Part shown: in pieces, positions 943 through 21,225 of the stretch | How the letters are laid out: each line of letters starts with the position of its first letter | Numbering within the stretch: the stretch's first letter is position 1 | DNA from: a virus | DNA length: 23,799 nt | IMG/VR virus record: IMGVR_UViG_3300027770_004783 | Location: 1 to 23,799 of that record | Direction: 5' to 3' (one strand) | Translations under genes and position numbers: made by a program | The notes under the pieces: generated by a model | The model's input: only the letters and a program-made list of their open reading frames with translations | What the model was told of the DNA's origin: nothing | Database searches by the model: none

Positions 943-1182
943 ATGGAAGGTACCAAGCTGAAAAAGAGAAAAGTCACCGCCAAATTCAAAGTGGAACTTG
1001 TTGAGTTGGCTCTACGGAAATTGCACAAACAGTTGGAAAGCGAAGGCGAGTTGAAAGCGACACTCGGCGACATCATTCGCCTTGTCGAAGCCCATAACTC
1101 CATGGAGCAGGAGACCAGTCCCAAACAGGTGCTTATCCGATGGATAGATCAACCGAGCGACAATCAAGATTCGGAAGCCTGA
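943..1182 (+). CDS. Small hypothetical protein, candidate small terminase
   Basis: 79 residues from ATG 943, which has AGGGAGA about 9-12 bases upstream. The in-frame ATG at 919 has only a weak purine stretch before it, so 943 is preferred. The protein starts with a Lys/Arg-rich segment (KLKKRKVTAKFK) and is then mostly predicted helix (VELVELALRKLHKQLE), ending acidic. It is first in a plus-strand operon and its 3' end overlaps the terminase ATPase frame by 43 bases. First position before the large terminase is where small terminases (DNA-recognition subunits) usually sit, and the size is compatible. I do not recognise the family, so the function is inferred from position only. Confidence 0.4.
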   Translation: MEGTKLKKRKVTAKFKVELVELALRKLHKQLESEGELKATLGDIIRLVEAHNSMEQETSPKQVLIRWIDQPSDNQDSEA

Positions 1183-2471
1183 GTATTCGTCGTGAAATCA
1201 AGTACGACGCGTTGCCGTCGCAAAAGCGGTTTCACCAAGCCAAGGCTCGATTCAAAGGCTTCTCTGGATCGATCGGATCGGGGAAAAGCCTAGCTCTATG
1301 TCACGAATCAATTCGGTTGAGCTACGAGAACCCCGGACGCCAAGGGCTAATCGGGGCGCCAACGTTTCCAATGCTCCGGGACGCAACCCAGCGGACCATA
1401 TTCGAACTACTGGAGGAGAATCGACTTCCGTTCGATTTCAACAAAGCGGAAAACTGCATCACGATGCGGGATACCGGCTCACGAATTGTATTTCGAAGCG
1501 TAGATGACTTCGAACGATTGCGAGGGACCAACCTTGCATGGTTCGGCGTCGATGAATTGACTTACTGCCCGGAAGAGGCGTGGCTGCGCCTCGAGGGACG
1601 ACTGCGTGATCCCAAAGCTCGAAAGCTTTGTGGATTCGCCGTTTGGACTCCGAAAGGCTTCGATTGGGTGTACGAAAGATTTCTTGCGAACCCTGTCGAA
1701 GGCTACGAAACGGTTCTGGCCCAGCCCATGGAAAACCGCCATCTGTTAGAACAGATCCCAGACTTCTACGAAAGACTGAAGCATAGTTATGACCCGCGGT
1801 TCTTTCAACAAGAAGTACTGGGCCAATATCTAAGCATTAGCGCGGGACAAGCCTATTATAACTTTGATCGCGCTTCGAACGTGCGGCGCTGCCAACTCGA
1901 TCTCGCAAGGCCTATCTATTGGGCGCTTGATTTTAATGTCGATCCCATGTCGTCACTCGTCGCTCAAGTCTATGGCGATTCCGTCAACGTAATCGACGAA
2001 ATATCGCTCGCCAGAGCGACAACTTGGGATGCCTGTGAGGAATTTTTGCGCCGTTATCCTAATTGCCATGGATTGACGGTTTACGGAGATGCTTCAGGGA
2101 ACTCGATGAAGACGACGGGACCTCGAGACGGAGAGGCGATCAGCAAGTTTTTCCGAATGCGCAACATTCAACGAGTGAAAGTGGAACTTCCGCCCCAGAA
2201 TCCGGCTGTTCGGGAGCGAGTGGTGTTGATGAACACAAAGCTTCTGGACGCGGCGGGAGATAGAAAGCTAATTGTCGACCCCGCCTGCGTGGAGTTGATA
2301 AAGGACCTCGAGCAAGTATGTCTGCAGGATGGAACCATGATTATCGATAAAGGAAAGGACTCGAAGCGGACTCATATGTCTGACGCCCTCGGGTACTTAG
2401 TTTGGCAGGTTCTCGGGAATCAGGACCGAGGGACAGTTGGCTTACAGAACCGGCGACTGCCTGGTTTCTAA
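1140..2471 (+). CDS. Phage terminase large subunit
   Basis: 443 residues, normal for a TerL. The N-terminal ATPase has a Walker A motif GSIGSGKS at residues 43-50, a GAPTFPMLRDA segment after it, and a Walker B with catalytic acid at VDE (137-139). The C-terminal RNase H-like nuclease shows three acidic positions in the right order: ALDFNVD (D264), YGDASGN (D317) and the Asp of HMSDALGY near 417. TerL pumps DNA into the prohead and cuts it. ATG 1140 is the only ATG before the conserved region; it overlaps the preceding gene and lacks a clear ribosome-binding site, so translational coupling is likely. All catalytic signatures are intact, so the motor looks functional. Confidence 0.95.
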   Translation: MDRSTERQSRFGSLSIRREIKYDALPSQKRFHQAKARFKGFSGSIGSGKSLALCHESIRLSYENPGRQGLIGAPTFPMLRDATQRTIFELLEENRLPFDFNKAENCITMRDTGSRIVFRSVDDFERLRGTNLAWFGVDELTYCPEEAWLRLEGRLRDPKARKLCGFAVWTPKGFDWVYERFLANPVEGYETVLAQPMENRHLLEQIPDFYERLKHSYDPRFFQQEVLGQYLSISAGQAYYNFDRASNVRRCQLDLARPIYWALDFNVDPMSSLVAQVYGDSVNVIDEISLARATTWDACEEFLRRYPNCHGLTVYGDASGNSMKTTGPRDGEAISKFFRMRNIQRVKVELPPQNPAVRERVVLMNTKLLDAAGDRKLIVDPACVELIKDLEQVCLQDGTMIIDKGKDSKRTHMSDALGYLVWQVLGNQDRGTVGLQNRRLPGF

Positions 2472-2489
2472 ACTCAAAGGGAGAATCGA

Positions 2490-3899
2490 ATGGTTACGAC
2501 GATTGACCAGGAACATCTGGAATTTAAGGCGAAGCGACTACTTTGGAAGCGCTACCGAGATTTATACGCTGGGGGGGAACAGTTTAAGGATAACGCCTCT
2601 CAGTATTTAGTGGCGCGCCAAAAGGAACCGGGCGACGTTTACGGTGAGCGGTTGAGTCGTGTTTTCTATGAAAACTACATCGGTTCCATCATCGACTGGT
2701 ACGCGGCCACTCTATTCCGGCGCGAGCCAGTGATCAACGCAGAGGGGGCGAACGACCTGGGTCGCATCTTCTTTAGTGATTTCATCGAGGATTCGGACAG
2801 GAAGGGAACAGGGCTCAGCGATTTCTACCGACGACAGATTACGGACGCACTGGTATACGGCGTCGGATATACGCTGATCGATTTCCCCCGGACTAGTCAT
2901 ATGGCAGCGAGTAGGGCCGAAGAAGAATTGCTAGGGGCGAGCCGCGCGTATCTCGTTCACTATAGTCCGGAGGATGTGATCAACTGGAGTCGGGACGAGC
3001 ACGGCACCTTCGAGTGGGTGGTCATCAGAACTCAGAGTTCGCGGAAGGAGAGTGTTGAGGACCAAGTACCGATCATGGAGACGCGCTGGATTTACTATGA
3101 CCGCGAACGATTCAAGGTCTTTTTGCGTTGCGACAAGAAGACACAGTCAGGCCAAGCGGGAGCCATTGAACTGGTCGACGAGGGAATCCACGGCCTAGCG
3201 AAGCTCAACCGGGTTCCACTATTTGAACTCAAGGTGAGTGACGGGATGTGGCTGATGAACAAGGCGGCGCTTCTGCAACTTGAGCACTTTAACAAGTCAA
3301 ACGCGCTGAGTTGGGCGCTAACGATGGGCCTGTTCGCCATGCCGGTAGTGTACAGCGAAAAGACCTTTGACCAGATGGTCGGGGAAAGCTATTTTCTCCA
3401 GTTGGGCCCGGGGGATCGGTTCGGGTGGACAGAGCCCGAGGGAAAGGTTTTCGAAATTGCGGCCCAAAACCTGCATCGCTTAAAAGATGAAATCTATCGA
3501 GTGTGCTACCTGATTGGCCAGGCGGGGCCGGCAGTCGGAGACAATCGGCCGGTTTCGGGGTTGGCCAAGCAGCGGGATTTCGCGATCACCCAAGAGGTAC
3601 TGCGGGGATTTGGAGACTCGGTGAAGGACGCGTTGAAGCGGATCTTGCGGGCCATCGAATTCGTCCGTGAGGATGGCTTACAGATCAACGTGGCTGGCTT
3701 GGACGAATTTGACATCGGTGACTTTGCAAGCGAGGTGGAAGATGCCACGAAACTCCTTGCAATGAACATCGAATCGAAGACCTTGGCGAAACAAGTTTAT
3801 AAGAAGTTGGCCTTCAAGTACCTCTGCGATGAGCGGCAAGAGGTGAAGGACACAATCGCGCGGGAAATCGATGAATGGTTTACGCGCGGGATCCAATAA
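2490..3899 (+). CDS. Phage portal protein
   Basis: 469 residues, starting 18 bases after the terminase with AGGGAG upstream of ATG 2490. Portal proteins form the dodecameric ring at the capsid vertex through which TerL packages DNA and to which the tail attaches. Supporting features: position between terminase and scaffold; the size; the N-terminal segment RLSRVFYENYIGSIIDWY followed by TLFRREP; the HYSPEDVINW motif, typical of SPP1-gp6/DUF4055-like portals; and a long helical C-terminal half (DSVKDALKRILRAIEFVRED) that fits stem and crown helices. No frameshift or missing segment is apparent. Assignment to portal is strong; the exact subfamily is not. Confidence 0.88.
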   Translation: MVTTIDQEHLEFKAKRLLWKRYRDLYAGGEQFKDNASQYLVARQKEPGDVYGERLSRVFYENYIGSIIDWYAATLFRREPVINAEGANDLGRIFFSDFIEDSDRKGTGLSDFYRRQITDALVYGVGYTLIDFPRTSHMAASRAEEELLGASRAYLVHYSPEDVINWSRDEHGTFEWVVIRTQSSRKESVEDQVPIMETRWIYYDRERFKVFLRCDKKTQSGQAGAIELVDEGIHGLAKLNRVPLFELKVSDGMWLMNKAALLQLEHFNKSNALSWALTMGLFAMPVVYSEKTFDQMVGESYFLQLGPGDRFGWTEPEGKVFEIAAQNLHRLKDEIYRVCYLIGQAGPAVGDNRPVSGLAKQRDFAITQEVLRGFGDSVKDALKRILRAIEFVREDGLQINVAGLDEFDIGDFASEVEDATKLLAMNIESKTLAKQVYKKLAFKYLCDERQEVKDTIAREIDEWFTRGIQ

Positions 3900-3911
3900 G
3901 GAGGACGGAGT

Positions 3912-4499
3912 ATGGATGAGAACAAGCAAGATCAGACAGGGCCGAACAAGGGCGTCGACTTTCGGAATCTGATTCAGGAAGCCGTTCGGGAGTTCGTGAA
4001 CCTGGAGCAGTCCAAGAGTGAGCCGGCCTACAAAGCGGAACTCGAAGACGAGCGACGGCGGCGCGAAATGCTCGAGCGACGGATGAACGAACTCGTCGAA
4101 GAGAATCGGAAGAGCAGACAACTTGCGGAGGAAGCAGAGCGCAGCTCTTCGATCCGAAGCGAGTTGCAACGGTTGGGGGTTCAGAAACTCGACCTAGCCT
4201 TCCGTGCCGTCAAGGACGACATTCAGCGGACAGAAGACGGTCGTCTGGTGGGGCGCACCCGGGACGGTGAGGTAACGGTGAAGGACTACTTGACGAACTT
4301 CGTCAATGAAAACCCTGAGTTGCTACCCGCGCGAATTCCTGGGGGATCGGGCGCGTCGACGAGTTCGAAGGCGCCGTCTTCGGCACCGTTGGGATCGTTC
4401 GACATTGACAAAATTCGTCCAGGGATGCCCAAAGACGAGTTGGAGCGTGCGCGGCAAGAGATTTCGCGCATTGCACAACAACTCAGTGGCTCCCGCTAG
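3912..4499 (+). CDS. Capsid scaffold protein
   Basis: 195 residues with a very strong ribosome-binding site (AAGGAGG) before ATG 3912. It is charged and helical: residues roughly 35-85 are Glu/Arg/Lys-rich with heptad character (ELEDERRRREMLERRMNELV), consistent with a coiled coil. A Ser/Ala/Pro-rich linker follows near 145-160, then a short C-terminal helix (PKDELERARQEISRIAQQ). Position directly before the coat gene, composition and size all match phage scaffolding proteins of the GP20 type, which shape the prohead and leave before DNA packaging. No prohead protease is encoded in the operon, so a protease-independent scaffold would be needed. Function is inferred from composition and position. 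Confidence 0.75.
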   Translation: MDENKQDQTGPNKGVDFRNLIQEAVREFVNLEQSKSEPAYKAELEDERRRREMLERRMNELVEENRKSRQLAEEAERSSSIRSELQRLGVQKLDLAFRAVKDDIQRTEDGRLVGRTRDGEVTVKDYLTNFVNENPELLPARIPGGSGASTSSKAPSSAPLGSFDIDKIRPGMPKDELERARQEISRIAQQLSGSR

Positions 4500-4554
4500 A
4501 CCAAGATTGCTTCTCTGATCGAGGTAATCGGCCAGGAGAAGGGACGTTGGAGCA

Positions 4555-4656
4555 ATGGGCTACAGCGTCCGGTGGGCCAGCCGATCGGGCTGGCGACAAA
4601 CTTACCGTAAACACCCCACGCCGAAATGGCTGGGGCTTTTTTATTTTAGGAGAAAA
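4555..4656 (+). terminator. Structured leader with terminator-like hairpin before the coat gene
   Basis: Two hairpins lie between scaffold and coat. The first is GCCAGCC (4576-4582) with GGCTGGC (4588-4594), a perfect 7-bp stem with loop GATCG. The second pairs CCCCA (4614-4618) and GCC (4620-4622) with GGC (4628-4630) and TGGGG (4631-4635), with one bulged C and loop GAAAT, followed by CTTTTTTATTTT. That is the form of an intrinsic terminator, placed just before the coat ribosome-binding site AGGAG. It may reduce read-through from upstream, act as an attenuator, or define a processed coat mRNA end. Confidence 0.6.
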
Positions 4657-4659
4657 GAA

Positions 4660-5571
4660 ATGGCTGCTATTACTTCAGCGAATGTAGCGAACGCGCTTGT
4701 TAAGCTCGTTGCCGCCGACGCGTTGCCCGCACTGATGGGTAACTTGGTTATGGGCAACCTCGTGAACCGGAACTTCGAGCCTTCGCTCGCTCAGGCTGGT
4801 GACACGATTAACGTGCCCATTCCTCCGACTCTGGTGGCGAACAACATCGCTCAGGGCGGCACGGTTACGACGCAGAACCCCAGTTTGGGTAATGCGCAGA
4901 TCGTCTTGAATACCCATGCCGAGGCCACATTCCAGATTCCGGACGTGACCAAGGTTTTGGCGGTTCCGGATCTGCTGCGGCTTTACATGGAGCCGGCCGT
5001 GGTGGCTCTCGCCGAGAAAATTGAGTCTGATATTCTGGCGCTCTATTCGCAATTCACCGCGAATACTCCGCTGGGATTCGCTGGTTCTCCTCTTACCGAA
5101 GGGTTAGTGGACGAGGCGGAAACGGCTCTGTTTAATGCGAAAGTGCCGACTTCCGCCCAGAAGTATCTTGTTGTGGATGGCAGCACTTATTCGCAGCTTC
5201 GTCAGATTCCGCGCTTCTCCGAGTACAATACGGCGGGTGAAGCCGGCGTTCGGGCCATGATTGATGGGACGGTCGGCAAGTTGAAGGACTTCTTTGTCTT
5301 CCGCTCGCAGTTTGTGGCCAAGACGGGCGCCGGGCCGGCTACGACCCAGAACCTGGCGTTTGCCAAGGATTCTATCGGTCTCTGTGTCCGTCGGCTGCCG
5401 CAGCCGTTGCCGGGCACCGGCGCGATTGCTGAGTATTCCGAACTCGGGAACTTCGGTATGCGCGTAATGATGAGCTATCAGCCGAACACGTTGGCCCAGC
5501 AATTCACCGTCGACTGCTTGTACGGAGTCGCGGTGTTGCGCAACAACTTTGGTGTTCAGGTCCGCAGCTAG
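4660..5571 (+). CDS. Major capsid (coat) protein, HK97 fold, P22 gp5-like
   Basis: 303 residues from ATG 4660, chosen because AGGAG lies 6-10 bases upstream and the sequence then starts MAAITSANVANALVKLVAAD, a natural N-terminus. An in-frame ATG at 4555 would add 35 Arg/Trp-rich residues read through two RNA hairpins, which is unlikely. The body matches the P22 coat (gp5) type family: AGDTINVPIPP in the N-terminal third, repeated amide-rich strands, a segment like VALAEKIESDILALY for the long spine helix, and a C-terminal YGVAVLRNNFGVQV strand. Hundreds of copies form the icosahedral shell. It sits after the scaffold and before connector genes, bracketed by an upstream terminator-like hairpin and a downstream GC-rich hairpin. 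Confidence 0.9.
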   Translation: MAAITSANVANALVKLVAADALPALMGNLVMGNLVNRNFEPSLAQAGDTINVPIPPTLVANNIAQGGTVTTQNPSLGNAQIVLNTHAEATFQIPDVTKVLAVPDLLRLYMEPAVVALAEKIESDILALYSQFTANTPLGFAGSPLTEGLVDEAETALFNAKVPTSAQKYLVVDGSTYSQLRQIPRFSEYNTAGEAGVRAMIDGTVGKLKDFFVFRSQFVAKTGAGPATTQNLAFAKDSIGLCVRRLPQPLPGTGAIAEYSELGNFGMRVMMSYQPNTLAQQFTVDCLYGVAVLRNNFGVQVRS

Positions 5572-5583
5572 TTCGTAAGTGCT

Positions 5584-5603
5584 GGGGCGGCTTCGGCCGC
5601 CCC
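5584..5603 (+). terminator. GC-rich UUCG hairpin after the coat gene
   Basis: GGGGCGGC (5584-5591), tetraloop TTCG, GCCGCCCC (5596-5603): a perfect 8-bp stem, 12 bases after the coat stop. No T-run follows, so it is not a classical intrinsic terminator. It more likely blocks 3' exonucleases and stabilises the coat transcript, or terminates only partly. Confidence 0.6.
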
Positions 5604-5633
5604 GGATTCTGGTTAGTCGACAAAGGAGAAGAT

Positions 5634-5948
5634 ATGGACCTTAGACACTATTACGCCGAAGTGGCGGCGACGGAAGAGACGATCGAAGGCGAGGACGCGC
5701 TTATCGTGAGCCGCCCGACTGGGGACGGCGGCAAAGCTGGCGTCATTTCTGAAGTGCCAAAGGGCGTAGCGGCCCGCCTCGTTGTGGAGAAGAAGGCGCG
5801 TCTGGCAACGCCGGATGAGGTGGAGTTCTACCGACTCGAGCAGGCCGAGGGGCACAAACTTCGCCAGGAAGCGGCGCTTGCACAACGGGTTCAGGTGACT
5901 TTAGTCAGCGAACACGAATGGAAATCACTACAGCCCCGTAAAGGGTAA
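5634..5948 (+). CDS. Small structural protein, candidate head completion/connector
   Basis: 104 residues, with AAAGGAGAAG before ATG 5634. The protein is acidic at the N-terminus (AEVAATEETIEGEDALIV), has a Gly-rich turn, then a mainly charged helical C-terminal half (DEVEFYRLEQAEGHKLRQEA). I recognise no family. It lies directly after the coat gene, where tailed phages usually carry decoration or head-tail adaptor proteins, so a capsid-related role is inferred from position. It is intact and co-linear with its neighbours, spaced 11 bases from the next gene. Confidence 0.55.
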   Translation: MDLRHYYAEVAATEETIEGEDALIVSRPTGDGGKAGVISEVPKGVAARLVVEKKARLATPDEVEFYRLEQAEGHKLRQEAALAQRVQVTLVSEHEWKSLQPRKG

Positions 5949-5959
5949 GGAACACTCAC

Positions 5960-6706
5960 ATGGCTCTCTTCGTAGATGGGAATCCTTCTGAACCGATGGA
6001 CCTCTCGCCGTACGAGACGTCCATTTTCAGCACCGCAACGACCGAAGGCATCGATTTAGTGGCGAAGGGGACGGTGGCGGCGCTGGAGATAGGTTTTGAA
6101 TTGCAACGCTTTTTGGTCCGGACGCCAGGCGGTGTCTCGTTCGGCTTGGCGAACGTGGTGGCTACGGACCCACTTCGGCAATGGCATATTTTGCACACTC
6201 TGGCGGTCGCCTTTCGGGATGCACATCACCAGCAGCTGAATGACCGTTACAAGTCGAAGTGGGAGACTTACGTGGCACTGGCCGCCAAAGCTTCCGAACT
6301 GTTGTATCAAATTGGGGTGGGGCTGGTGTATGCCCCGCTGCCGCGACCGACGCTTCCGATAGTGGGACAAACGTTGGGAACCCAGGCGGCATTGACTTGG
6401 TTCGTGAAGGTGAGCTGGACGGACGACCTTGGAGTTGAAAGCCTCCCTAGTTTGGCGAGTTCCTTCAACACCTCCGAGGGTTCAGCGCTGACGGTCCGCG
6501 CCGTTGGGGCACCGCGAACGGCGCGGGGATGGAACGTCTATCTCGGTACGAGCGATGACCAGGTCGAACGCCAGAATGTTGGCCTTCTGGCCTTAGGTAG
6601 TACGTGGCAGATGCCAGCGGGCGCGCCTGCGGCGGGCATTCGTCCCGGCACGGGGCAGGTACCGGACCAATATCTGCGTCGATCAACTGTAGTGTTTCGA
6701 GGATAA
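5960..6706 (+). CDS. Structural protein with FN3-like C-terminal domain, candidate head-tail connector
   Basis: 248 residues; AAGGA precedes ATG 5960. Residues about 1-115 are mixed, with a helical portion (DPLRQWHILHTLAVAFRDAH and DRYKSKWETYVALAAKASEL). Residues about 120-240 form a beta-rich domain with an FN3/Ig-like pattern: LTWFVKVSWTDDLGVES at the front and ARGWNVYLGTSDDQVERQN near the end. A similar FN3-like pattern (FHVYRGTNPHQMARI) recurs in the large hub at 10923-14837, suggesting a shared module type within the operon. Position between the coat and the tail tube suggests a connector or tail-adaptor role. I cannot name a family. Confidence 0.55.
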   Translation: MALFVDGNPSEPMDLSPYETSIFSTATTEGIDLVAKGTVAALEIGFELQRFLVRTPGGVSFGLANVVATDPLRQWHILHTLAVAFRDAHHQQLNDRYKSKWETYVALAAKASELLYQIGVGLVYAPLPRPTLPIVGQTLGTQAALTWFVKVSWTDDLGVESLPSLASSFNTSEGSALTVRAVGAPRTARGWNVYLGTSDDQVERQNVGLLALGSTWQMPAGAPAAGIRPGTGQVPDQYLRRSTVVFRG

Positions 6707-6710
6707 TCCG

Positions 6711-7205
6711 ATGGCACAACTGGCAGTGTTGGCAGTGAAGAAGATCGAGGCTCTCTTGCGAGCGCCGACGGGTTTAGCGCAGGGGCTGGCGGCGGTCAGC
6801 GAGGCAAATGGGCAGACATTCGCACAATTGAGCGATCAGCAAATTGTGGCGCAAAATGTAGCGGCGGATCTGGCGGAAAGAGCCACGGGAGCGTTGTATC
6901 CGACTTACTACATTTATTGCGAAAAGCTTAACAATACACTTCGTGAGAAGTTTCGGCAGTTTTCTGGAACGGCCGTGATGTCAGTCGAGGTTCGAGTGAC
7001 TCACGATCGTTTAGAGGGGATTGAGCAAAAAGCGCACTTATATGTCGATGCGCTGATCGAAACTTTGGACGCGAGTCGAGGTGATTGGGGAGACGGCCAG
7101 TTCTATACCGGCGGTTACCAAATCAGTTTTAGCCCCGTGAAGCTTGGCGGGAAACACTTCGTGCAGACAGCGAAAGCGACCTTCGAAGTCCAGATTAGCA
7201 AATAG
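6711..7205 (+). CDS. Candidate tail terminator/completion protein
   Basis: 164 residues from ATG 6711, with AGGA 7-10 bases upstream and only 4 bases after the previous stop. The order before the tail-tube gene is where siphoviruses and GTAs encode the tail terminator, which caps the tube and joins it to the head. The layout of this protein suits that family: an N-terminal helical part, then YPTYYIYCEKLNNTLREKF, then alternating strands (GTAVMSVEVRVTHD) and a C-terminal strand pair ending in FVQTAKATFEVQISK. The final AKATFEVQI strand is typical of tail-completion folds. The assignment rests on position and secondary-structure pattern, not on a recognised motif. Confidence 0.55.
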   Translation: MAQLAVLAVKKIEALLRAPTGLAQGLAAVSEANGQTFAQLSDQQIVAQNVAADLAERATGALYPTYYIYCEKLNNTLREKFRQFSGTAVMSVEVRVTHDRLEGIEQKAHLYVDALIETLDASRGDWGDGQFYTGGYQISFSPVKLGGKHFVQTAKATFEVQISK

Positions 7206-7216
7206 AGGGAAAGGCA

Positions 7217-8386
7217 ATGGCTTGTTACATCTCATCAAACCAGAATCGATTTTACGCGGCTCTCGAAGGCAGTTTCGGGAACGTGGCGAGCGTTACGGCC
7301 GCCAATCGCATACCTGCAATCAAGTTAGCGATTCGACACGACACGATCGTAGCGCGGAGGCGCGACAAGTCGGGGAGCCGATCCCGAGCGGCGATGCCGT
7401 CCGGGGTACGGCGGCGAACGGACTATCGCCTGGAGACGTACCTTACGAACTGGGGTGAGACGACAGGCGAACCCCCATATGGGCCGATGCTCCGGGGAGC
7501 CCTTGGGGCTGAACCGGTGATCAATGCTGGTGGGATTGTGGCTTCGACTGCGAGGAACAACATTACCGTGGGAGGTCCCCATGGGTTGTCCAAGGGTCAA
7601 GCAATCAGCTTTGGCAGCGAGATTCGGTTTGTTCAATCGGTGGTGAATGCGACGACGATTCAGCTGAATGCGCCGTTTTCGGTATCACCGGCGACGGGTG
7701 CTCCGCTGAACCCCACGATCACGTACGCGCCGGCGACTCAGTTGCCGAGTGTTTCGATCTTCGACTATTGGAGTCCGGCGACGGCGGTTCAACGAATCAT
7801 CGCCGGTGCCTCGGTGGATGTGATGAAAATCAAAGTGAACGGCGACTATCATGAGTTCGAGTTTCAAGGCGAGGCAAGAGACCTCCTCGACAATACGTCC
7901 TTCAGCTCCGGAGTCGCGGCCTTGACTCAGTTTCCAGAGGAGCCAGCGGTAAGTGAGATTGGGTATCAGATCATACCCGGTCATATCGGGCAAGTCTGGA
8001 TGGGCGCGACTCCGACGCAGTTTTTCACGTTGACCGAGGCGGAAGTAGTTGTGCGGAATAACGTCGACATGCGGAAGCGTGAGTTTGGGTTTGACGGTCC
8101 TCGTTGTATGGCGGCCGGTGAGCGCGAGGTGGGTATGCGTTTCCGGATTCTGGAGCAGGATGATGCGGCGACGAAGGATCTATACGCGGCTGGGAAGGCT
8201 CGGCAGCCGATTTCGGTGATGCTGCAACTGGGTCAAGAGCCCGGCCAGCTTTGCGGGATTTACATGCCGAACGTAATTCCGGAAGTCCCAGAGTTTGACG
8301 ACCGAAATCCGAGAGTTGAGTGGTCGTTTGGGCTTAGCCAGGCGAACGGCTCACTCGATGATGAAATTCGGATTGCATTCGCTTAA
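7217..8386 (+). CDS. Major tail tube protein with inserted beta domain
   Basis: 389 residues; AAAGG precedes ATG 7217. The N-terminal and C-terminal parts look like a tail-tube (gp9/gpV-like) protein: early RFYAALEGSFGNV and RLETYLTNWG segments, and a C-terminal half with KVNGDYHEFEFQGEARDL, then EVVVRNNVDMRKREFG and a final strand VEWSFGLSQANGSLDDEI. Residues about 100-170 (GGIVASTARNNITVGGPHGL onward) form an extra beta-rich module with KGQAISFGSEIRFV, comparable with the GQLFQIDGELLVV module in the hub protein. Tube proteins stack as hexameric rings. At 389 residues it is longer than many tube proteins, explained by the insert, which probably projects from the tail surface. Confidence 0.75.
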   Translation: MACYISSNQNRFYAALEGSFGNVASVTAANRIPAIKLAIRHDTIVARRRDKSGSRSRAAMPSGVRRRTDYRLETYLTNWGETTGEPPYGPMLRGALGAEPVINAGGIVASTARNNITVGGPHGLSKGQAISFGSEIRFVQSVVNATTIQLNAPFSVSPATGAPLNPTITYAPATQLPSVSIFDYWSPATAVQRIIAGASVDVMKIKVNGDYHEFEFQGEARDLLDNTSFSSGVAALTQFPEEPAVSEIGYQIIPGHIGQVWMGATPTQFFTLTEAEVVVRNNVDMRKREFGFDGPRCMAAGEREVGMRFRILEQDDAATKDLYAAGKARQPISVMLQLGQEPGQLCGIYMPNVIPEVPEFDDRNPRVEWSFGLSQANGSLDDEIRIAFA

Positions 8387-8397
8387 GGAACGCGACC

Positions 8398-8763
8398 ATG
8401 AACTACGAGAGTTGTGTAAAGAGACTATCACAAGCAAGTCCGGGTGTCGCGTTTTCCGTTCGAAAGATGTCATTGGCTGGACGGATGGAGTTAGTGCACC
8501 GAATCCGAGTTGAGGGAGTAGGCTTGGCCTTCAGTGAAGCGGGGAGCGAACCGAAGGACAAGCTAATGGCCGCCGAAATCAGCAGTTCGATCGAATCGCT
8601 CTATGTCCGATGGGGGTTGGTTTCCATTGAAGGATTGGAGATCGACGGTGTGGTGGCGGATGTCGATCGGTTGATCGCGACCGGACCCGAAGCGCTATGT
8701 CGAGAAATCGCGCAAGCAGTGCGGGAGCAATGTTTTCTGAGCGAGGAAGAGAGAAAAAACTAA
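8398..8763 (+). CDS. Tail assembly chaperone, G-like zero-frame product
   Basis: 121 residues from ATG 8398, with AAGGA upstream. The position between tail tube and tape measure is the invariant place for the gpG/gpGT chaperone pair of long-tailed phages, which coat the tape measure during tail assembly. The protein is mostly helical with a segment LAGRMELVHRIRVEG and ends in the acidic SEEERKN. Its last codons carry a canonical slippery heptamer immediately before the stop, and a second frame (-1) continues to 9089. That geometry supports the chaperone assignment better than the amino-acid sequence does. Confidence 0.75.
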   Translation: MNYESCVKRLSQASPGVAFSVRKMSLAGRMELVHRIRVEGVGLAFSEAGSEPKDKLMAAEISSSIESLYVRWGLVSIEGLEIDGVVADVDRLIATGPEALCREIAQAVREQCFLSEEERKN

Positions 8764-10094: not shown

Positions 10095-10101
10095 GAACGA
10101 A

Positions 10102-10896
10102 ATGGCTTTTTTCCCACAATTATCGACAGGTGTCGCGAGCCAGTATCCGCTTAGGCGGAGACAGGTGTTCCGTTCGGCGGTGAATCGGATGCGCGATGGA
10201 AGACAGATCAAGGCGTTTGACTCGGGCGGCAGTGGCCTCGAGATCGAGCTCGAACTCAATGGGTTGACCGACGATGAGATGACTGGATTGGAGGAGTTCT
10301 TCGCCGAACGCGAGGGCAGGAGAGAAACGTTTGGATTTTTGGATCCAGCGATGAACCTTCTCCAATGGAGTGAAGACTTCTCGAAACCGGTTTGGACTCG
10401 AGGTCCGCTACTCAGCGTCACCGGCGGGGAGCTAGACCCATGGGGGACCTTACGCGCGAGCCGCCTGCAGAATTCAGCAGGCGCGGCCCAGGCGGCGGTT
10501 CAGGCAATCGCAGCGCCTGGCGGTTATCGATACTGCTTGAGCATTTGGCTTTCGGCCGTCGCTCCGACGCAGTTGACACTGCTGGCGACATCTGGCGGGT
10601 TTAGCCAGTCGCAATTAGTGGTGGTTGATCAGCTCTGGAAGAGGTTTTCGTTGAGCGTAGAGCTTCCATCGTCGACGGAGTCGATCGGTTTCGGCTGGGA
10701 ACAATCGGCGGGTTCGGTCGTAAAGGCAGTGGGGGCACAAGTGGATGCGCAGCCGGCAGCAACGGGTTACCGAAAGACGGCCTCACGCCATGGCGTGTAT
10801 TCGAAAGTACGATTTGCGGCGGATACGTTCTCGCGGGTAGCGCGAGGAGTGGACGATAACAGCACAAACATCAAGCTTTTTGCCCGCCTAGCTTAA
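10102..10896 (+). CDS. DUF2460-like baseplate protein carrying a carbohydrate-binding-like insert
   Basis: 264 residues from ATG 10102, preceded by AGGA. The upstream extension of the open frame to 9826 is rejected because it runs through the previous gene. Residues 1-77 (FPQLSTGVASQYPLRRRQVF to ETFGFLDP) align with the first 83 or so of the preceding gene. About residues 78-230 are an inserted beta-sandwich-like module, opening AMNLLQWSEDFSKPVWTR and including YRYCLSIWLSAVAP and ATGYRKT. This is the usual look of phage carbohydrate-binding/jelly-roll modules. The last 35 residues (GVYSKVRFAADTFSRVARG to IKLFARLA) resume the DUF2460 C-terminal strands. Inferred role: a baseplate ring that also presents a sugar-binding domain for adsorption. 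Confidence 0.72.
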   Translation: MAFFPQLSTGVASQYPLRRRQVFRSAVNRMRDGRQIKAFDSGGSGLEIELELNGLTDDEMTGLEEFFAEREGRRETFGFLDPAMNLLQWSEDFSKPVWTRGPLLSVTGGELDPWGTLRASRLQNSAGAAQAAVQAIAAPGGYRYCLSIWLSAVAPTQLTLLATSGGFSQSQLVVVDQLWKRFSLSVELPSSTESIGFGWEQSAGSVVKAVGAQVDAQPAATGYRKTASRHGVYSKVRFAADTFSRVARGVDDNSTNIKLFARLA

Positions 10897-10922
10897 CGCT
10901 CCGCGGCTACTGGACGAACCCT

Positions 10923-13900
10923 ATGCTGACGATTCACGAGATGAAAGAGCTGGAGATCCTGGAAACTCCAGTGCTGCTGTTTGACTGCGAACTGCGAAAC
11001 GGCCAACACCATTATTGGGCGACGCATCAGGTGACGTTTGAGGGCAACCGCTACGATGCCCGACTCATCGAGCACACTGGCTTTGACATCAAGGCCTACT
11101 CGGAGGACGGGATAGACACGTCGGCGAAAGTAAGTGTCGTGCTGGCGAACGCAGATTCGCGGTACTCCCAAGTGGAACGAGGGGTAGGATTCAAGGGATC
11201 CCGTTTGACGGCCCGGTTTGTCTTCGTGAACCTAGCAAGCGGTGTGGCCTCGACCGAAGCGGTCACCCTATTTCGGGGTATTGGCAATTCTCCAGACCAG
11301 ATTCGGGAGTCGACATTTCAGGTATCGTTCAACAATCGGCTTAACTTTCAAAGAGTTCTACTGCCCGACGTGAGGATTCAGAAGCGATGCCCATGGCTGT
11401 TTCCCGCAATGCAGGCGAATCGAATTGAGGCAATTACCGGTGGGCCGCGAGCCAGCCATTCTCCATTCTTTCGCTGCGGGTATTCGGCCGGTGAGCCGGG
11501 GGGCGTTGGGAATCTGAATGGGACCGCACCGTTTACGAGTTGCGATTATACGCGTAAGTCGTGTGAAGAGCGGGGGATGTTTAGTACTGACTCCCATGTA
11601 CAAATCACGCGTCGCTTCGGTGGAATAGAATTTGTACCGTCGACAACGCTTGTTCGCGGTTACGGCGACAAGGGATACTCGACGAGCGCAGTGCAGACCA
11701 ATGAGGCGAAGTACAACGATTTTGTGCCGCTCGTCTACGGAACTTGCTGGGTGCAGCCGCCGATCACTCTGGCGCGGAATGACGGAAATCTAACTCGGAT
11801 GGAAGCATTGGTCGCCCTTGGTGAGATACGCGGGGTCTTGAAGGTAGTCGTCAATGACGTTGAGATTCCGCTGGCGGTTGACGGAACGAATATGACGTCG
11901 ACCGGATGGTACCACTTGGTAGGTAGAGGCAATCGAACCGGGGCGTTCAACCTCAATTTCACGGATGGTAATGGAGAGGCGCTGGGTGATCCCTACGGTA
12001 GCATGGCTTACGTTTCAGTGGTAGTTCCGAATCGGGTTCAGGATGGCAGATCGATACCTCGGGTACAGGTTCTGGTCGAAGGAGCAGAGTTACCGACGTA
12101 TGATGCAGACGGAGAGTTTGTAGCTGACCTCTTTACGAACAATCCGGCCTGGGTGATGCTCGATGTTCTGAAGCGGAGTGGATGGCGAGAGGACGAAATT
12201 GACCTAGCGAGCTTCGGGACAACGGCCCTCTATTGCGCCGATGAGATTTCGGCGTTTGATCTTCACGGAAACTCGGTGCTGATCCCTCGGTTCCAGTGCA
12301 ATCTTGCGCTCCGTAGGCGTCGGAGCGCGGCGGAGGTTGTCCGCGGGATTCGGAATTGCGCTGGCTTGTTCTTGACTTTTGGGGTGGGAGGTAAGCTGCA
12401 GCTACGGCAGGAGTCGACGATTGGAGTTCAACAGGCACAGGCTTCTTCAGGAACAAATTCGGTCGAAGAGCTACTGGGCGGTTGGCCGGCCTACGAGTTT
12501 GATGAGAGTTCGATTGTGAGAGGAGCAATCGGCGAGCCCAAGCTCAGGATGTACGCGAGAAGTTCCGCAGATACGCCGAATCGTTTCAGTGTGGAGTTCC
12601 AAGACTCGTTCAATGAGTATCAACAGGACTCTTTCTCCTTGCTGGATTTGAACGATGTTGTAACGGCCGGACAAGAGACGAGCGCCGCTCTTCCCGCGCT
12701 CGGATTGGCTAATTTCGATCAGGCGGCACGGATGACGAAGCTGCACTTGCTCAAGAGTGTGCGAGGCAACGTTTATCTGGAGTTCGAGACATCGGTGAAA
12801 GCGATCGGGCTCAAGCCGGGTGATTTAGTAACAATGACTTACGCTAAGCAGGGTATGGATCGACAATTATTCCGGATCAGTCGCATCACGCCGGGACTTA
12901 ACTTCCGCACTGTTCAACTGACCATGCAGCAGCACGAAGACGATTGGTATGTTCAGACGGCTGGCAATGGGGCGGAGTCATCGGGAAGGCAGCCCCGCTA
13001 TGAATTGGGCGTGCCCAGGCCGTTGGTTGGAAATATGCTCGATGGGGATGGGATCGCTCAGTTTACAATCAGCGAGACCTACGCGGAAGGAACAGACGGC
13101 TCGGCTCGTGTTGAAATCTCAGTTGGCTTCACAGAGCCAACGAGACCGGAGACGACGAAGTCGGGGATTCCGCTGTTGGCGCTGTCCCCGGTGTCGCAAG
13201 CAGCGGGCGGGTCTTTGAGGGGCGATCAGGTCCTTTATTATGCGCTCACGGGGCTCGATAGCGAAGGCCGCGAGAGTGCAACGTCGTTCCTTGTTCGGGC
13301 CGTAATCCCGGCAGGGACGGATACGAATCGAGTTATGCTGAGTGGCCTAAGTTTCGGCTCAGGGACCAATTCGTTTCATGTGTACCGAGGCACGAATCCT
13401 CATCAGATGGCGCGGATTGCAGTGAACCAACCCATCGCGTTGACTTACTCTGACGATGGTGAGGCCGATGGCTTTGTGTCACCGCCGGACGAAAATTTTT
13501 CGCACGCGAATTTCTATTGGCGGTTAGAGCTGCAGGGCGAGCGGACGGCGGGGATCGTCAGTTCCGGGGCGATCGGTCATCCTGGCTTGAACATGATGGT
13601 CAATGAATGGCGATCAAAGACGGTAAGAATTGTCAGCGGCAGAGGGGTGGGACAGGAGAGAAGGATCGAGAGCAATTCGGAGACGAGTTGCGTTTTGAGC
13701 GCAGCTTGGGCGGTGGTACCTGATGCGACGAGCAAGTGGTCAATTGTGGAACCGAGTTGGGTGCGAGGGGCCACGACGTCTACGAGCCCGGCCGTATTCG
13801 AGGTTCCGAATCGAGAAGGAGCGACGGTCCAAGTTACGGGTCGCGCGGCGAATGCGAATGATCGAGAGTGCCTTCCGGAGCTGTCGCCAGTTACGCGATG

Positions 13901-14837
13901 GCGGATTCTGGGGGCCAGCGCGGCGCAACTTGATGTGGATGTGGCTCCAACACCATCGTTCTCAATGAGTTCAGTCGGTGACGGTACGATTGAAGTGCAT
14001 TCGATTGGTTTCCCTTCGCTGGTCAACACGCGAACGATTTCGGCCGGAACCTTGGTGTTGCGGTATTGGGATGAGCTTCAGAGCCCATCATCTGTCGTTT
14101 TGAGCCAAGCCATTGATGAGGTGGATAACACGATCTTGGTCTCAATTGCCGGTCGGCTTTCGGTTGGACAACTGTTCCAAATCGACGGCGAGTTGTTAGT
14201 GGTTACGACAGTATCCGCTGGTGGGGATTTGGTGCAGGCGGTGCGAGGTTCCCATGGTTCGTTGATCGAAATTCACGCTGTTGGGGCGACGGTTTATCCC
14301 TTGGACCAGAGGACTCATATCCTACCTTTTGGGCGGGACTTTTTTGGATCACCGGCCAGCGGAAGCTTTTCGTTTAACTCACACTTGCCTGGGATGAGGG
14401 TTGCCGCGGCGGACCTTTACTTGACGAATGGTCGCGGGAATTCGGAAGTGGCGAAGCGAAACGTAACGGGGACCGTTGACTACGGATTGAGGACGTTGCA
14501 GGGTGGCCAGATCTCACTGCAGGTTGAGGGATGGCTGGCGATTCAGGAAGATGCGACGCCACCGTTTCTGGTTGAATCGCCACTGGTGATGCGGGACCTT
14601 TTCGCAGTCGTAGGCGGCGCGCCGATGCTTGGTCCAATCGTGCTGGTTCTCCGACAGGATGAGGACGAGATTTGCAGGTTAACGATTCCAGCCGGGCAGA
14701 CGGTTTCAAACAGAGTCGACGGATTTGGAATGGCTCCGCTGCGGACAGGAGCGAGGTTAAGGCTGGAGATTGAAGGCGTAGCGCAAACGGCGGAGAGCAC
14801 TCCAGGAAGTGATCTGACAGTGACAATTCGACTGTAA
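10923..14837 (+). CDS. Large tail hub protein (DUF2163-like N-terminus, FN3-like and beta modules)
   Basis: 1304 residues. ATG 10923 has only a weak GGACG upstream; ATG 10941 is an alternative. N-terminal 150 residues match the DUF2163/GTA gp13-like start (VLLFDCELRNGQHHYWATHQ). A cysteine-containing region follows, from CPWLFP (C156) through CGY and SCDYTRKSCEERG, which may bind metal or form disulfides. Then comes YNDFVPLVYGTCWVQPPI (from Y264), typical of central tail hub/host-specificity proteins. Residues about 735-860 are FN3-like with FHVYRGTNPHQ. A beta module near 1080 reads GQLFQIDGELLVVTT. It seems to merge the hub and the megatron roles that GTAs split between gp13 and gp15. No separate NlpC/P60 peptidase gene is present. 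Confidence 0.78.
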   Translation: MLTIHEMKELEILETPVLLFDCELRNGQHHYWATHQVTFEGNRYDARLIEHTGFDIKAYSEDGIDTSAKVSVVLANADSRYSQVERGVGFKGSRLTARFVFVNLASGVASTEAVTLFRGIGNSPDQIRESTFQVSFNNRLNFQRVLLPDVRIQKRCPWLFPAMQANRIEAITGGPRASHSPFFRCGYSAGEPGGVGNLNGTAPFTSCDYTRKSCEERGMFSTDSHVQITRRFGGIEFVPSTTLVRGYGDKGYSTSAVQTNEAKYNDFVPLVYGTCWVQPPITLARNDGNLTRMEALVALGEIRGVLKVVVNDVEIPLAVDGTNMTSTGWYHLVGRGNRTGAFNLNFTDGNGEALGDPYGSMAYVSVVVPNRVQDGRSIPRVQVLVEGAELPTYDADGEFVADLFTNNPAWVMLDVLKRSGWREDEIDLASFGTTALYCADEISAFDLHGNSVLIPRFQCNLALRRRRSAAEVVRGIRNCAGLFLTFGVGGKLQLRQESTIGVQQAQASSGTNSVEELLGGWPAYEFDESSIVRGAIGEPKLRMYARSSADTPNRFSVEFQDSFNEYQQDSFSLLDLNDVVTAGQETSAALPALGLANFDQAARMTKLHLLKSVRGNVYLEFETSVKAIGLKPGDLVTMTYAKQGMDRQLFRISRITPGLNFRTVQLTMQQHEDDWYVQTAGNGAESSGRQPRYELGVPRPLVGNMLDGDGIAQFTISETYAEGTDGSARVEISVGFTEPTRPETTKSGIPLLALSPVSQAAGGSLRGDQVLYYALTGLDSEGRESATSFLVRAVIPAGTDTNRVMLSGLSFGSGTNSFHVYRGTNPHQMARIAVNQPIALTYSDDGEADGFVSPPDENFSHANFYWRLELQGERTAGIVSSGAIGHPGLNMMVNEWRSKTVRIVSGRGVGQERRIESNSETSCVLSAAWAVVPDATSKWSIVEPSWVRGATTSTSPAVFEVPNREGATVQVTGRAANANDRECLPELSPVTRWRILGASAAQLDVDVAPTPSFSMSSVGDGTIEVHSIGFPSLVNTRTISAGTLVLRYWDELQSPSSVVLSQAIDEVDNTILVSIAGRLSVGQLFQIDGELLVVTTVSAGGDLVQAVRGSHGSLIEIHAVGATVYPLDQRTHILPFGRDFFGSPASGSFSFNSHLPGMRVAAADLYLTNGRGNSEVAKRNVTGTVDYGLRTLQGGQISLQVEGWLAIQEDATPPFLVESPLVMRDLFAVVGGAPMLGPIVLVLRQDEDEICRLTIPAGQTVSNRVDGFGMAPLRTGARLRLEIEGVAQTAESTPGSDLTVTIRL

Positions 14838-14867
14838 CATTCGACTGGAACAAAGGAGCGCAAGACG

Positions 14868-17657
14868 ATGGCTGAGTATCTAGAGAAGCTGAGGCCCGAT
14901 CGCGATTTACAGGTTTACTTCGAAAGGCCGTCGGCGATTGCGGCGATGAGTGAAGCGACGGCTTCGGGCTTCACGGTTTCGGGGACATGGCGGCAGCAGT
15001 TCGATTGGTGCGTGATCGAGTGGGACCGAGATAACGTTTGGGAACATCCGTTGTTTCGGAACCTTCCGGACGGTGACCTGAGTGGACTCTTCCTTAGCTA
15101 CGATGAGACGCGGGAGAACTGCTTGCCGATGGACTCCGAGATCTATCCCACGGTGGGATGGCCATTTCTGCGCGTTTGGGTGGAGGATGACACGGTAATC
15201 GATGATATGGAGAGCTATTACGAAGTCCCGCTGAAGCGCTACGCTGTGCCGATTGCGGGAGCCTACACTCCCGCTACCGCTACGTTTACTCTACAAGGTT
15301 CGGTGACGGCAGGTGATGCGGTTGGATTGGCATGGATGAGTGAATATCATACCCATGTTTGCTATGCGACGGACACTTTGGTGGATGTTGCGGAAGCGAT
15401 CACAGCGAGTGTCAATGCATTCTCCGTTAATATGATTGCCAGTCGAACTGGAACGACAATCACGTTGACTTACGTGGGAGAAGACGGCCTGGGGGTGCGT
15501 CAGCTGTTAGCCGAATCGACGACCGGGTCTAATGGTAATCGGTTGGGGGCTTACGGGCACGTCACGCCAGGTGGGTCAGAAGCCTGGGACGTCGAGGCGC
15601 AATATTTCGCGGGGGGGACTTCTCCGTCGGAATGGCGAGTAGCGCTGGACTTCTCCGCAATCGAGGACAAGAGCGGCAACCCTGTCCCAATGAATCGGGT
15701 CAGAAAGATGCGCTGGACTTATGCAACTGACTTTCAGCGTGGAGAGTTTGAAAGGAGCGAGTTTCGGGTTCATCTAGATAACTGGAATGTTACGGGCTCT
15801 GCCCGCCGTTATCGGGTTGCTGGACCGGGTTCTCGACGGATTGAGAACTCGTCGAAAACGGTTGAGTATTATGGTTCGAGTTGGGGGCCTGAGGTTCGAG
15901 GCAACTATTCTGGCGGGACAATTCGTTGGGTCGAGCAGTATGGAGATCGCCTAGTGATCCGGTACCGATCTGGGCAGAACCACGAGTTGTACCTTGGCAC
16001 GCGCCTGCTCGATCAGGCTCCAAACATTGCGTTTCGAGTCGATGATGGTCCAGTGAAGGTGTTCAATCTTCGACGAAAACTGGAGGATCGACTGCTTCGC
16101 TTGCCAATAGGAGGGTATGGGGCTGGTGAGCACACGGTGTACATCACCCATAACGGTACATCGGGCAGACGATTTTGGTTCGATTTCCTGGAGGTGGCGA
16201 TCCCAGCAGAAGCGGTGGCCAATTTGCCTGCAATCGAAAAGTTGACGCTGGCGACGGACTGGGATACGGATCACTCGCTGGCGGTTCCCGCTGAGCGCAC
16301 GGCGTGGATGATTCACTCCCTCGGCTTTCGTGGAAGAGTGAATCACTATGTAGGCGCGTTAATTTTTTACGAACTTTACCGTAAAGGTCACCAGTACGCT
16401 TCAGCGACGATCGATTTCATTGGGGTACCGACTCCAAGCGAATACAGCGAGATCGCGATTGGAACTTTGGGTGAGCCGTCATCGACGATCACCGTTCGCC
16501 ACCTGAATCTGTTCGGCGATACCGCGGAAAGAATTGCCAAAGCATTCGAACTCGAGTTCAATCGCGGCTATACGGCCATCCGAGCGGAAGCGTCCGGAAC
16601 TCGGTTGTCGATCTATTCCCGAAAGATGGGCCAAATCGGAGAGTCCATCACACTTGGAGGTTCGCCCGCGACGGGGGGATTCCTACTGGACCTGAGCAGC
16701 GCCACGTTGGAGGGAGGAGTCGACGGACGTTGGACGACCGACACCGTCACAGGGCAGACCATAAATCGGGCTTGTCGCGACTGGTCGAGAGAATTCTGCA
16801 GGACATGTCAATCATACGGCCTAGACGTTACAGCAGCCTTTTCAACGGAACTCGAGCATGGAGATCCTTCGCCGGAGGCCGGATTGGCCCAGCGATACTC
16901 GGATGGGGAACCGTGTCTGTTGACGACACCGGCACTTCAGACGAACTTTTCGCCTACCGCCAGGCAATACTGGAAGCGGGTCCATAAGCAGATGGCCGAC
17001 ATTATGGCCGAAATCGGTTTGGTTCCTTACCTTCAGCTGGGTGAGGTGCAGTGGTGGTATTTTCCTGGTCCATTCGGGATCTCCACGGGGATCAGCATGC
17101 CTTATTATGACCAGTATACGATCGACAGCTTCCAGGCGAGGTACGGCTTTCCTATGCGGTTGATTCAAAATCAATATGTGGATCCCGGGTTGTACCCGGA
17201 GGAGAGTGTCCTCTTGCCTGCTCTGATTGGCGAGTACACCGACGAGCTGATCGGGTTTGTTAAGGCGGCGCACCCAAACTGCCGCTATGAAGTTCTGTAC
17301 CCGACGGACGTGAATGACACAGCTTGGGGGCGAATCGTCAACTATCCAGACGCGGAGTGGACGCCGGCGAAGATCAACGTTCTGAAGACGGAGAGCTTTA
17401 GCTTCACCTTCGACCGGAATCTAAAGAAATCTAAGTATTCTGTTGAGTTTCCCTCTTCGAAAGGATTCCTCCGATCGCAAAGCGCCTTTCTAGTGGGGCC
17501 GGGCGACTCGACGACTACGTGGCGAAAGGAAGTTGACATGGCGATGGCGGCAGGAGTGGAGTCGATCGTTCTCTTTGCGCTCGACCAGTTCTGCTTGATC
17601 GGGTACTCCCCATCGAATTCCCGGATTTCGCGCCGAAGTGCCAGGCACGGCGCATAA
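14868..17657 (+). CDS. Large tail protein with repeated beta domains and glycoside-hydrolase-like TIM barrel
   Basis: 929 residues, AAAGGAG before ATG 14868, last gene of the operon. Residues about 139-215 (TFTLQGSVTAGDAV, then DTLVDVAEAITASVN and TTITLTYVGEDG) form a beta domain. A second copy of the same pattern lies near 515-620 (IAIGTLGEPSSTITV, then DTAERIAKAFELEFNRGY and TRLSIYSRK). The last 280 residues look like a GH TIM barrel: VPYLQLGEVQWWYFPG with E726 as candidate acid/base, NCRYEVLYP, NVLKTESFSF with E842 as candidate nucleophile, and ESIVLFALDQF as a late strand. Comparable proteins are, I believe, sometimes annotated as non-contractile tail sheath. Likely role: tail exterior/tip, degrading or binding cell-surface glycans. 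Catalysis is not established. The C-terminus is short and Arg-rich after the last strand. Confidence 0.68.
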   Translation: MAEYLEKLRPDRDLQVYFERPSAIAAMSEATASGFTVSGTWRQQFDWCVIEWDRDNVWEHPLFRNLPDGDLSGLFLSYDETRENCLPMDSEIYPTVGWPFLRVWVEDDTVIDDMESYYEVPLKRYAVPIAGAYTPATATFTLQGSVTAGDAVGLAWMSEYHTHVCYATDTLVDVAEAITASVNAFSVNMIASRTGTTITLTYVGEDGLGVRQLLAESTTGSNGNRLGAYGHVTPGGSEAWDVEAQYFAGGTSPSEWRVALDFSAIEDKSGNPVPMNRVRKMRWTYATDFQRGEFERSEFRVHLDNWNVTGSARRYRVAGPGSRRIENSSKTVEYYGSSWGPEVRGNYSGGTIRWVEQYGDRLVIRYRSGQNHELYLGTRLLDQAPNIAFRVDDGPVKVFNLRRKLEDRLLRLPIGGYGAGEHTVYITHNGTSGRRFWFDFLEVAIPAEAVANLPAIEKLTLATDWDTDHSLAVPAERTAWMIHSLGFRGRVNHYVGALIFYELYRKGHQYASATIDFIGVPTPSEYSEIAIGTLGEPSSTITVRHLNLFGDTAERIAKAFELEFNRGYTAIRAEASGTRLSIYSRKMGQIGESITLGGSPATGGFLLDLSSATLEGGVDGRWTTDTVTGQTINRACRDWSREFCRTCQSYGLDVTAAFSTELEHGDPSPEAGLAQRYSDGEPCLLTTPALQTNFSPTARQYWKRVHKQMADIMAEIGLVPYLQLGEVQWWYFPGPFGISTGISMPYYDQYTIDSFQARYGFPMRLIQNQYVDPGLYPEESVLLPALIGEYTDELIGFVKAAHPNCRYEVLYPTDVNDTAWGRIVNYPDAEWTPAKINVLKTESFSFTFDRNLKKSKYSVEFPSSKGFLRSQSAFLVGPGDSTTTWRKEVDMAMAAGVESIVLFALDQFCLIGYSPSNSRISRRSARHGA

Positions 17658-17888: not shown

Positions 17889-17907
17889 GGTATCTGGAGC
17901 TATACCG

Positions 17908-19635: not shown

Positions 19636-19651
19636 TTCAAAGGAAATTGAG

Positions 19652-21225
<1,574 letters not shown>

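Follow-up and report, generated by a model that had tools for sequence, protein, structure and literature searches.

The stretch of DNA analyzed here (the window) is the entire IMG/VR record IMGVR_UViG_3300027770_004783, 23,799 bases in length and not cut out of a larger contig. Its plus strand carries, at positions 919–17657, a head-tail cassette of 16 genes (~16.7 kb), the frames of which are all uninterrupted in the list of open reading frames (ORFs). We hold with very high confidence that this cassette is a domesticated, vertically inherited virion operon of the Bryobacterales, an order of the Acidobacteriota. Quite likely it serves as a gene transfer agent (GTA), and we consider it probable, with a little less assurance, that it represents a new, independently evolved GTA system, ancestral to Bryobacterales, that combines a P22-type head with a shortened siphovirus tail and is present in most genomes of the order. 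The unit opens at 919 with an 87-codon gene overlapping that of the large terminase (TerL). It encodes a small-terminase (TerS) candidate, TerL, a portal, a probable scaffold, a P22-type coat, three connector-type proteins and a tail tube-like protein, followed by a chaperone pair, a tape measure, two distal tail proteins, a 1304-residue hub and a TIM-barrel tail protein. An initial annotation of the sequence had described a complete, co-directional head-tail operon with intact frames, and the genes that it named were all found on the plus strand, uninterrupted. Family searches with Pfam and PHROG and the ORFs of the window gave no integrase, repressor, replication, protease or lysis gene, in agreement with that annotation; a head protease is not expected with a P22-type head.

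Distribution among bacterial genomes and viral records

The scan of bacterial genomes, made with TerL alignment A1, gave 171 matches, and the 80 of these that were listed nearly all carry titles of Bryobacterales, Bryobacteraceae, Solibacter or broader acidobacterial names. This bears out the earlier conjecture of an Acidobacteriota-type genome. A TerL match was found in 191 of the 257 genomes of the order Bryobacterales; seven phage-grade matches (E 1e-30 to 1e-67) were set aside, which leaves 184 of 257 with a cassette-grade TerL. Carriers mostly have exactly one cassette TerL, with an internal stop in none of those listed. Outside the order set only three genomes matched in a class sample of 399, and beyond the order no TerL match at 1e-100 was seen among the 396 genomes of a phylum sample. 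The occurrence of the cassette is order-wide in Bryobacterales, and the rest of the class and of the phylum is almost free of it. Non-carriers occur in runs of neighboring handles (G072–G079, G116–G121 and G239–G257, with the carrier G245 inside one run), a pattern that would fit lineage-wise loss or absence only if handle order follows taxonomy. A contig titled Arcobacter (L157, DYJN01000047.1) also carries the cassette; it is probably a mislabelled acidobacterial metagenome-assembled genome, to judge from the 66% GC tag in the isolate name and the otherwise acidobacterial distribution.

The scan of viral contigs with TerL gave 327 relatives. Among the best 80 of the 327, from which the length figures were taken, none exceeds 18.7 kb, and 16 are as long as the cassette, at 16.1–16.9 kb. 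Many IMG/VR records of 16–17 kb (viral-contig loci L002–L081) are apparently the chromosomal cassette, counted repeatedly, and not viruses.

Conservation, selection and inheritance

Gene order was read in 30 genomes (~30–39 kb each) plus the window, and from TerL to the hub it is identical in all of them. The distance from TerL to the end of the last gene is 15.8–16.8 kb, the exception being one genome at 17.7 kb, and the number of genes is 15–16 throughout. Over all loci fetched, down to a TerL identity of ~60%, 1573 of 1580 gene-locus checks showed an intact ORF, which upholds the earlier remark that frames are not broken here, unlike those of a decaying prophage. The ratio of nonsynonymous to synonymous substitution rates (dN/dS) in close pairs is 0.02–0.29 for the cassette genes, TerL and portal being lowest, and ~0.01–0.04 for the neighboring ilv genes; a 23-codon comparison of the tail-chaperone gene g11 and a 17-codon coat fragment were disregarded as artefacts. 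The calculation of dN/dS for each gene had been proposed in the initial annotation as a check on domestication, and the values, far below 1, bear this reading out.

The genes of the packaging motor and the shell merit a closer description. TerL (1140–2471; PF03237 6e-13, phrog_2 4e-36) has a dN/dS of 0.03–0.09, and its ATPase and nuclease residues (Walker A GSGKS, DE138-139, D264, D317 and D415) are invariant across 24 divergent sequences. The dN/dS of the portal protein (2490–3899; phrog_145 8e-48) is 0.02–0.11. The major coat protein, of 303 residues and of the P22 coat family (4660–5571; PF11651 1e-16, phrog_283 1e-41), is the most conserved protein of the cassette, with a median identity of 78%. 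The coat ORF opens at 4555; the true start is placed at 4660 because in-frame stops upstream of it are common in the relatives. Terminase, portal and coat are under strong purifying selection, a pattern which, on our reading of the sequences, says that DNA packaging would still be in use.

Trees of the concatenated cassette and of rpoB were compared for 27 genomes. They have 13 of 24 splits in common, versus a mean of 0.27 and a maximum of 3 with shuffled labels. The distances of cassette and rpoB are correlated as well (Mantel r 0.74; 0.86 for the portal).

Chromosomal location

Since the window is the whole record, the sequence just outside had to be taken from relatives. In 12 genomes, several of which have a near-complete chromosome as the main contig, no tyrosine recombinase (integrase) was found within 57 kb of the cassette on the same contig, and six of the 12 have none on that contig at all. 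The flanks of the cassette in relatives are ordinary host genes. Among the findings that would refute its reading, the initial annotation had named att sites, an integrase and early genes directly beyond the window, and a patchy distribution with different insertion sites. Neither an integrase nor early genes were found beside the cassette in the relatives, att sites not having been searched for directly, and the cassette occurs across the order, mostly in single copy, with host neighbors common to deep branches.

In the window the cassette is followed by ilvB, ilvN, ilvC and a citramalate-synthase-like gene (17887–22843, plus strand), with the same neighbor in G001–G004. An ABC transporter ATPase and/or an M24 peptidase is encoded downstream in 13 of 36 loci, on several deep branches. 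The two neighborhoods meet in G008, where cimA-ilvC-ilvN-ilvB lies on the 5′ side of the cassette, reading away from it, and the ABC transporter, c11 and M24 lie on the 3′ side. The clade of the window still has the cassette upstream of ilvB, its orientation flipped relative to the other genomes. We infer one ancestral place between the ilv and the ABC transporter/M24 blocks, after which the cassette would have been inverted in the clade of the window and relocated in other lineages. Of the earlier suggestion that the cassette occupies the same locus, next to ilvB, across genera, one part stands, in that deep branches have host neighbors in common. The other part does not: ilvC lies at most 13 kb from TerL in only 7 of 36 genomes, and ilvB as the universal site of the cassette was rejected.

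Prophage relatives in the same genomes

Three genomes of the order (G212, G142 and G047) each have a normal cassette as well as a second cluster that differs from it, in which the virion genes follow one another as in the cassette over the part read. Compared to the cassette, the second clusters are 64–73% identical in the coat, 35–50% in TerL and 31–32% in the portal. Their tape measures have 1145 (G212) and 999 (G047) residues, the G142 piece ending before this gene; the tape measure of the cassette (9076–9741 in the window, 221 residues, C-terminal match to phrog_3779 2e-5) has 181–245 residues in nearly all loci. The cluster of G212 contains a match to phage lysozyme (3.9e-5). In G047, a helix-turn-helix (HTH) protein is encoded upstream of TerL (HTH_29 2.6e-5), with a weak match to the Sf6-type small terminase. 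These prophages differ from the cassette in having extra genes, and they sit beside it and do not replace it. The relatives provide a before-and-after comparison within the same genomes, in which the tape measure is cut about fivefold and the terminase partner is without the HTH. The loci of prophage relatives (L222, L223, L230, L231 and L235–L239) are a useful outgroup for the ancestral phage.

Predicted function and alternative explanations

The cassette presents what is expected of a GTA locus: a virion cluster with a terminase and without replication, integration or lysogeny genes; structural genes intact under purifying selection; and long-term vertical, non-mobile inheritance, with conflicts between the trees remaining at deep nodes. 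A GTA is also expected to have a small terminase without a specific DNA-binding domain, and g1 (919–1182, 87 residues), the putative TerS, fits in size, in position and in having no HTH. The gene was found in 128 of 128 loci and overlaps TerL in 127; its N-terminus is variable and its C-terminal segment conserved. None of 43 g1 members matched an HTH family. The structural model of g1 consists of two helices at low confidence (predicted local distance difference test score (pLDDT) of 69), and a Foldseek search with it gave no match. As in known GTAs, motor and shell are intact, the candidate partner of the motor has no specific reader of DNA, the tail is short and there is no means of self-propagation.

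In the mechanism that we propose, a subset of cells would express the operon, and a P22-type shell would assemble on the scaffold around the portal. TerL, together with a small terminase devoid of a sequence-specific DNA-binding domain, would fill the head by the headful with any DNA that is met, mostly host chromosome. A short non-contractile tail, its length set by the tape measure of ~200 residues, would be attached; at roughly 0.15 nm per residue, the 221 residues in the window predict a tail of about 30 nm. The cell would lyse through lysis genes encoded elsewhere, as in RcGTA of the Alphaproteobacteria, and the particle would inject its DNA into a related cell.

Several points weigh against this interpretation. 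About a quarter of the genomes of the order are without the cassette, beyond the assembly gaps that recA indicates. The recA control was found in 247 of the same 257 genomes, versus 184 for the cassette TerL, so part of the absence is real; these are losses or lineages that never had the cassette. Strong rpoB splits are contradicted by 6 of 18 strong cassette splits, at deep nodes, possibly by reason of ancient exchange or of weak resolution. No lysis or regulatory genes were located, the regulators of RcGTA not having been searched for. The assignment of g1 as the small terminase is that of a candidate, from position, size and a low-confidence model, and expression, particle release, packaging of host DNA and delivery are steps that we infer. 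A reduced carbon cost has been reported for the alphaproteobacterial GTAs; it was not seen for the cassette compared to the three prophage relatives, three being too few to decide.

A domesticated virion may be put to uses other than transfer, such as a bacteriocin-like killing particle or protein delivery, and the tail, hub and tail-tip genes, all intact, include a conserved tail that could serve as a tailocin. We regard this as unlikely. A tailocin is a set of tail genes without a functional head and terminase, and requires no terminase, portal, scaffold or coat, yet here these are the most conserved, the catalytic residues of TerL are kept, and the gene not found in several lineages is the last tail gene. 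Packaging of DNA, to judge from the selection pattern, is still in use, and this counts against a tailocin; the term "tailocin-like" in the initial annotation finds no support, with terminase, portal and coat intact under strong purifying selection. A conventional temperate phage lineage confined to Bryobacterales, whose early, lysogeny and lysis modules would lie elsewhere or have dropped out of the assembled pieces, agrees with the phage family relatives of most cassette genes and with the occurrence of true prophage relatives in the order. It is nonetheless very unlikely in our estimation. The integrase, repressor and replication genes of a temperate prophage were not found at the locus (att sites were not searched for directly), the 12 genomes have no integrase within 57 kb and six of them none on the contig, and the flanks are host genes common to distant genomes. 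The near-single copy, the constant size and the agreement with the host tree are not phage-like, and the true prophage relatives differ, with portals 31–32% identical and tape measures of ~1000 residues. The related proposal of the initial annotation, a recent prophage with modules elsewhere, is strongly disfavored by the same lack of a nearby integrase and by the same shared host flanks.

The cassette is compact and without replication genes, which would suit a phage satellite, or an element that hijacks capsids and is packaged with the help of another. Such an element is extremely improbable here: the cassette encodes the full virion and the terminase itself, with none stolen, no integrase or replication gene is nearby, and the cassette follows the host tree. 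As for a slowly decaying, functionless remnant of an ancient prophage, the replication and lysogeny genes are indeed gone and about a quarter of the genomes are without the cassette. We give this explanation almost no credence, as it is refuted by selection and integrity at such depth, namely 1573 of 1580 intact ORF checks to ~60% TerL identity, dN/dS of 0.02–0.29 and a frameshift site that is kept (see below). The proposal of an independent GTA-like system, by comparison, is supported by the order-wide, near-single-copy occurrence, the dN/dS values, the vertical signal and the lack of mobility genes.

Other genes and signals of the window

The remaining head genes, like all genes of the cassette, are on the plus strand. 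The probable scaffolding protein (3912–4499) is assigned by position and a weak match (phrog_1879, E 0.011), and the position of its gene is kept in all complete loci. Between it and the coat gene, directly before the latter, lies a terminator-like hairpin with a T-run (4614–4643, plus strand), which is found in the window's clade and also in G001 and G002; different ones exist in G101 and G170, and none elsewhere. A conserved pre-coat terminator as a sign of anti-termination was rejected (5 of 37 loci versus 14 of 219 coding windows). The hairpin is clade-specific at most, and attenuation in the window's clade is possible. A strong hairpin after the coat gene (5582–5605, plus strand) is a possible partial terminator, such sites being no commoner in the region than in shuffles. 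Three genes without a Pfam or PHROG family match come next. The product of g6 (5634–5948; intact in 126 of 126 loci) is a putative small head or connector protein, and that of g8 (6711–7205; 120 of 120) is by position a connector or tail-terminator candidate. Between them, g7 (5960–6706) encodes a head-tail connector candidate with a helical N-half and a beta C-half (model pLDDT 92), for which a fold search against the PDB gave matches, none of them usable.

The tail genes begin with that of the tail tube-like protein (7217–8386; phrog_290 3e-8). The tail assembly chaperone g10 (8398–8763), G-like, is assigned by position and by the slippery site at its end, and g11 (8697–9089), in the −1 frame to g10 and intact in 101 of 101 loci, is by its frame and the same site the frameshifted, T-like half. 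The slippery heptamer A_AAA_AAC (8754–8760, plus strand), directly before the g10 stop, would direct a −1 frameshift from g10 into g11, as in the G/GT tail chaperones of lambda. It precedes the stop of the first-half chaperone in 35 of 36 loci, versus 6 of 312 background windows. Downstream of the tape measure are a DUF2460 distal tail protein (9738–10094; PF09343 1e-13), of 118–120 residues across loci, and a second DUF2460-like distal tail or baseplate protein (10102–10896; PF09343 0.002). The baseplate hub or central tail protein (10923–14837; PF13550 (Phage-tail_3) 8e-9, phrog_31 4e-21, T5 pb3 4e-6) has 1292–1311 residues in all loci. The last gene encodes a TIM-barrel tail protein of the "non-contractile tail sheath" family (14868–17657; PF23845 4e-19), and a sequence search of solved structures with it gave no match. 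No match to this gene was found after the hub in G156, G206, G207, G232, G008 and G151, and it is therefore accessory; loci without it after the hub are L202–L203, L208–L209, L214–L217, L272 and L279–L280.

Outside the cassette, the two edges of the record hold fragments of a DDE transposase (34–603, plus strand; PF01609 2e-12) and of a reverse transcriptase of the group II intron type (23080–23730, minus strand; PF00078 9e-9, phrog_1423 2e-24), typical for repeat-related contig ends.

Implications

Few GTAs are established outside the Alphaproteobacteria. In the present case, comparative evidence tells a domesticated particle apart from the true prophages related to it that reside in the same genomes. 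If the GTA reading is true, widespread soil bacteria may have had built-in gene exchange since the early history of the order, which would bear on gene flow in soil, and viral catalogues enter one chromosomal system as hundreds of distinct viruses. IMG/VR lists the cassettes as 16-kb "viruses", and studies of the soil virome could be led astray by them in counting viruses and in making claims on host genes.

Comparison with known systems

The cassette resembles the RcGTA type (Alphaproteobacteria: Rhodobacter, Caulobacter) in being a head-tail cluster without replication or integration genes, inherited vertically in an order-scale clade. A TerS candidate without a detectable DNA-binding domain, a short tape measure and the tail-tip families DUF2460 and Phage-tail_3 are further points of likeness. 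Among 14 control genomes, both of these families match the GTA producer Caulobacter vibrioides, and both are present in the cassette, as in the RcGTA homology family. The differences reside in the head, which in the cassette has a P22-type coat and a probable scaffold, and in the phylum and the host locus. The head of RcGTA has an HK97-type capsid with a protease; in the cassette the coat is of the P22 family and no protease gene was found. Of the 14 control genomes, E. coli alone has a match to the P22 coat family and Caulobacter has none, so the head of the cassette is from another lineage than that of RcGTA; in five genomes searched, the coat matches lie only in the cassette. The parallel with the alphaproteobacterial GTA cluster that the initial annotation drew from gene order holds for the tail tip and the short tape measure, but not for the head. 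By its gene content, the cassette is an independent domestication, predicted to work like a GTA, outside the RcGTA homology family.

The coat family is common to Streptomyces phage Keanu, Arthrobacter phages, Vibrio phages and the P22 family (Pfam), and the TerL group includes Pelagibacter and cyanobacterial phages, at 31–33% identity to the cassette TerL. The phages of the coat family differ from the cassette in being complete phages of 31 kb and more. For isolated phages among the matches listed, identity is at most ~33% in TerL and at most 28% in coat and portal.

Known GTAs have small terminases without a detectable DNA-binding domain (PMC6854486, PMC11841831). Packaging is headful in RcGTA and probably in all GTAs (PMC11841831, PMC7947584), and the known particles contain 4–14 kb of DNA (PMC11841831). 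The content of a GTA particle is expected to be random host DNA for the most part, in a quantity that cannot encode the entire GTA. A 2024 review, according to which definitive recognition of new GTAs from sequence is not yet possible, gives as GTA hosts Alphaproteobacteria, Brachyspira, Desulfovibrio and Methanococcus, with the Acidobacteria unmentioned (PMC11841831). An acidobacterial genomics paper reports prophages in subdivision 3 strains, those with virion genes being counted as active (PMC5900883). Our literature search found no paper joining GTAs with Bryobacterales, and papers naming Acidobacteria or Acidobacteriota seemed, from their titles and passages, not to bear on the matter; preprints and most subscription papers lay outside the search, so this absence is no proof.

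The cassette may also be likened to BaGTA (Bartonella), VSH-1 (Brachyspira), Dd1 (Desulfovibrio) and VTA (Methanococcus), which are likewise independent domestications of tailed phages, in different hosts. An independently domesticated GTA, undescribed so far and predicted here from gene content, is the best reading of the Bryobacterales cassette.

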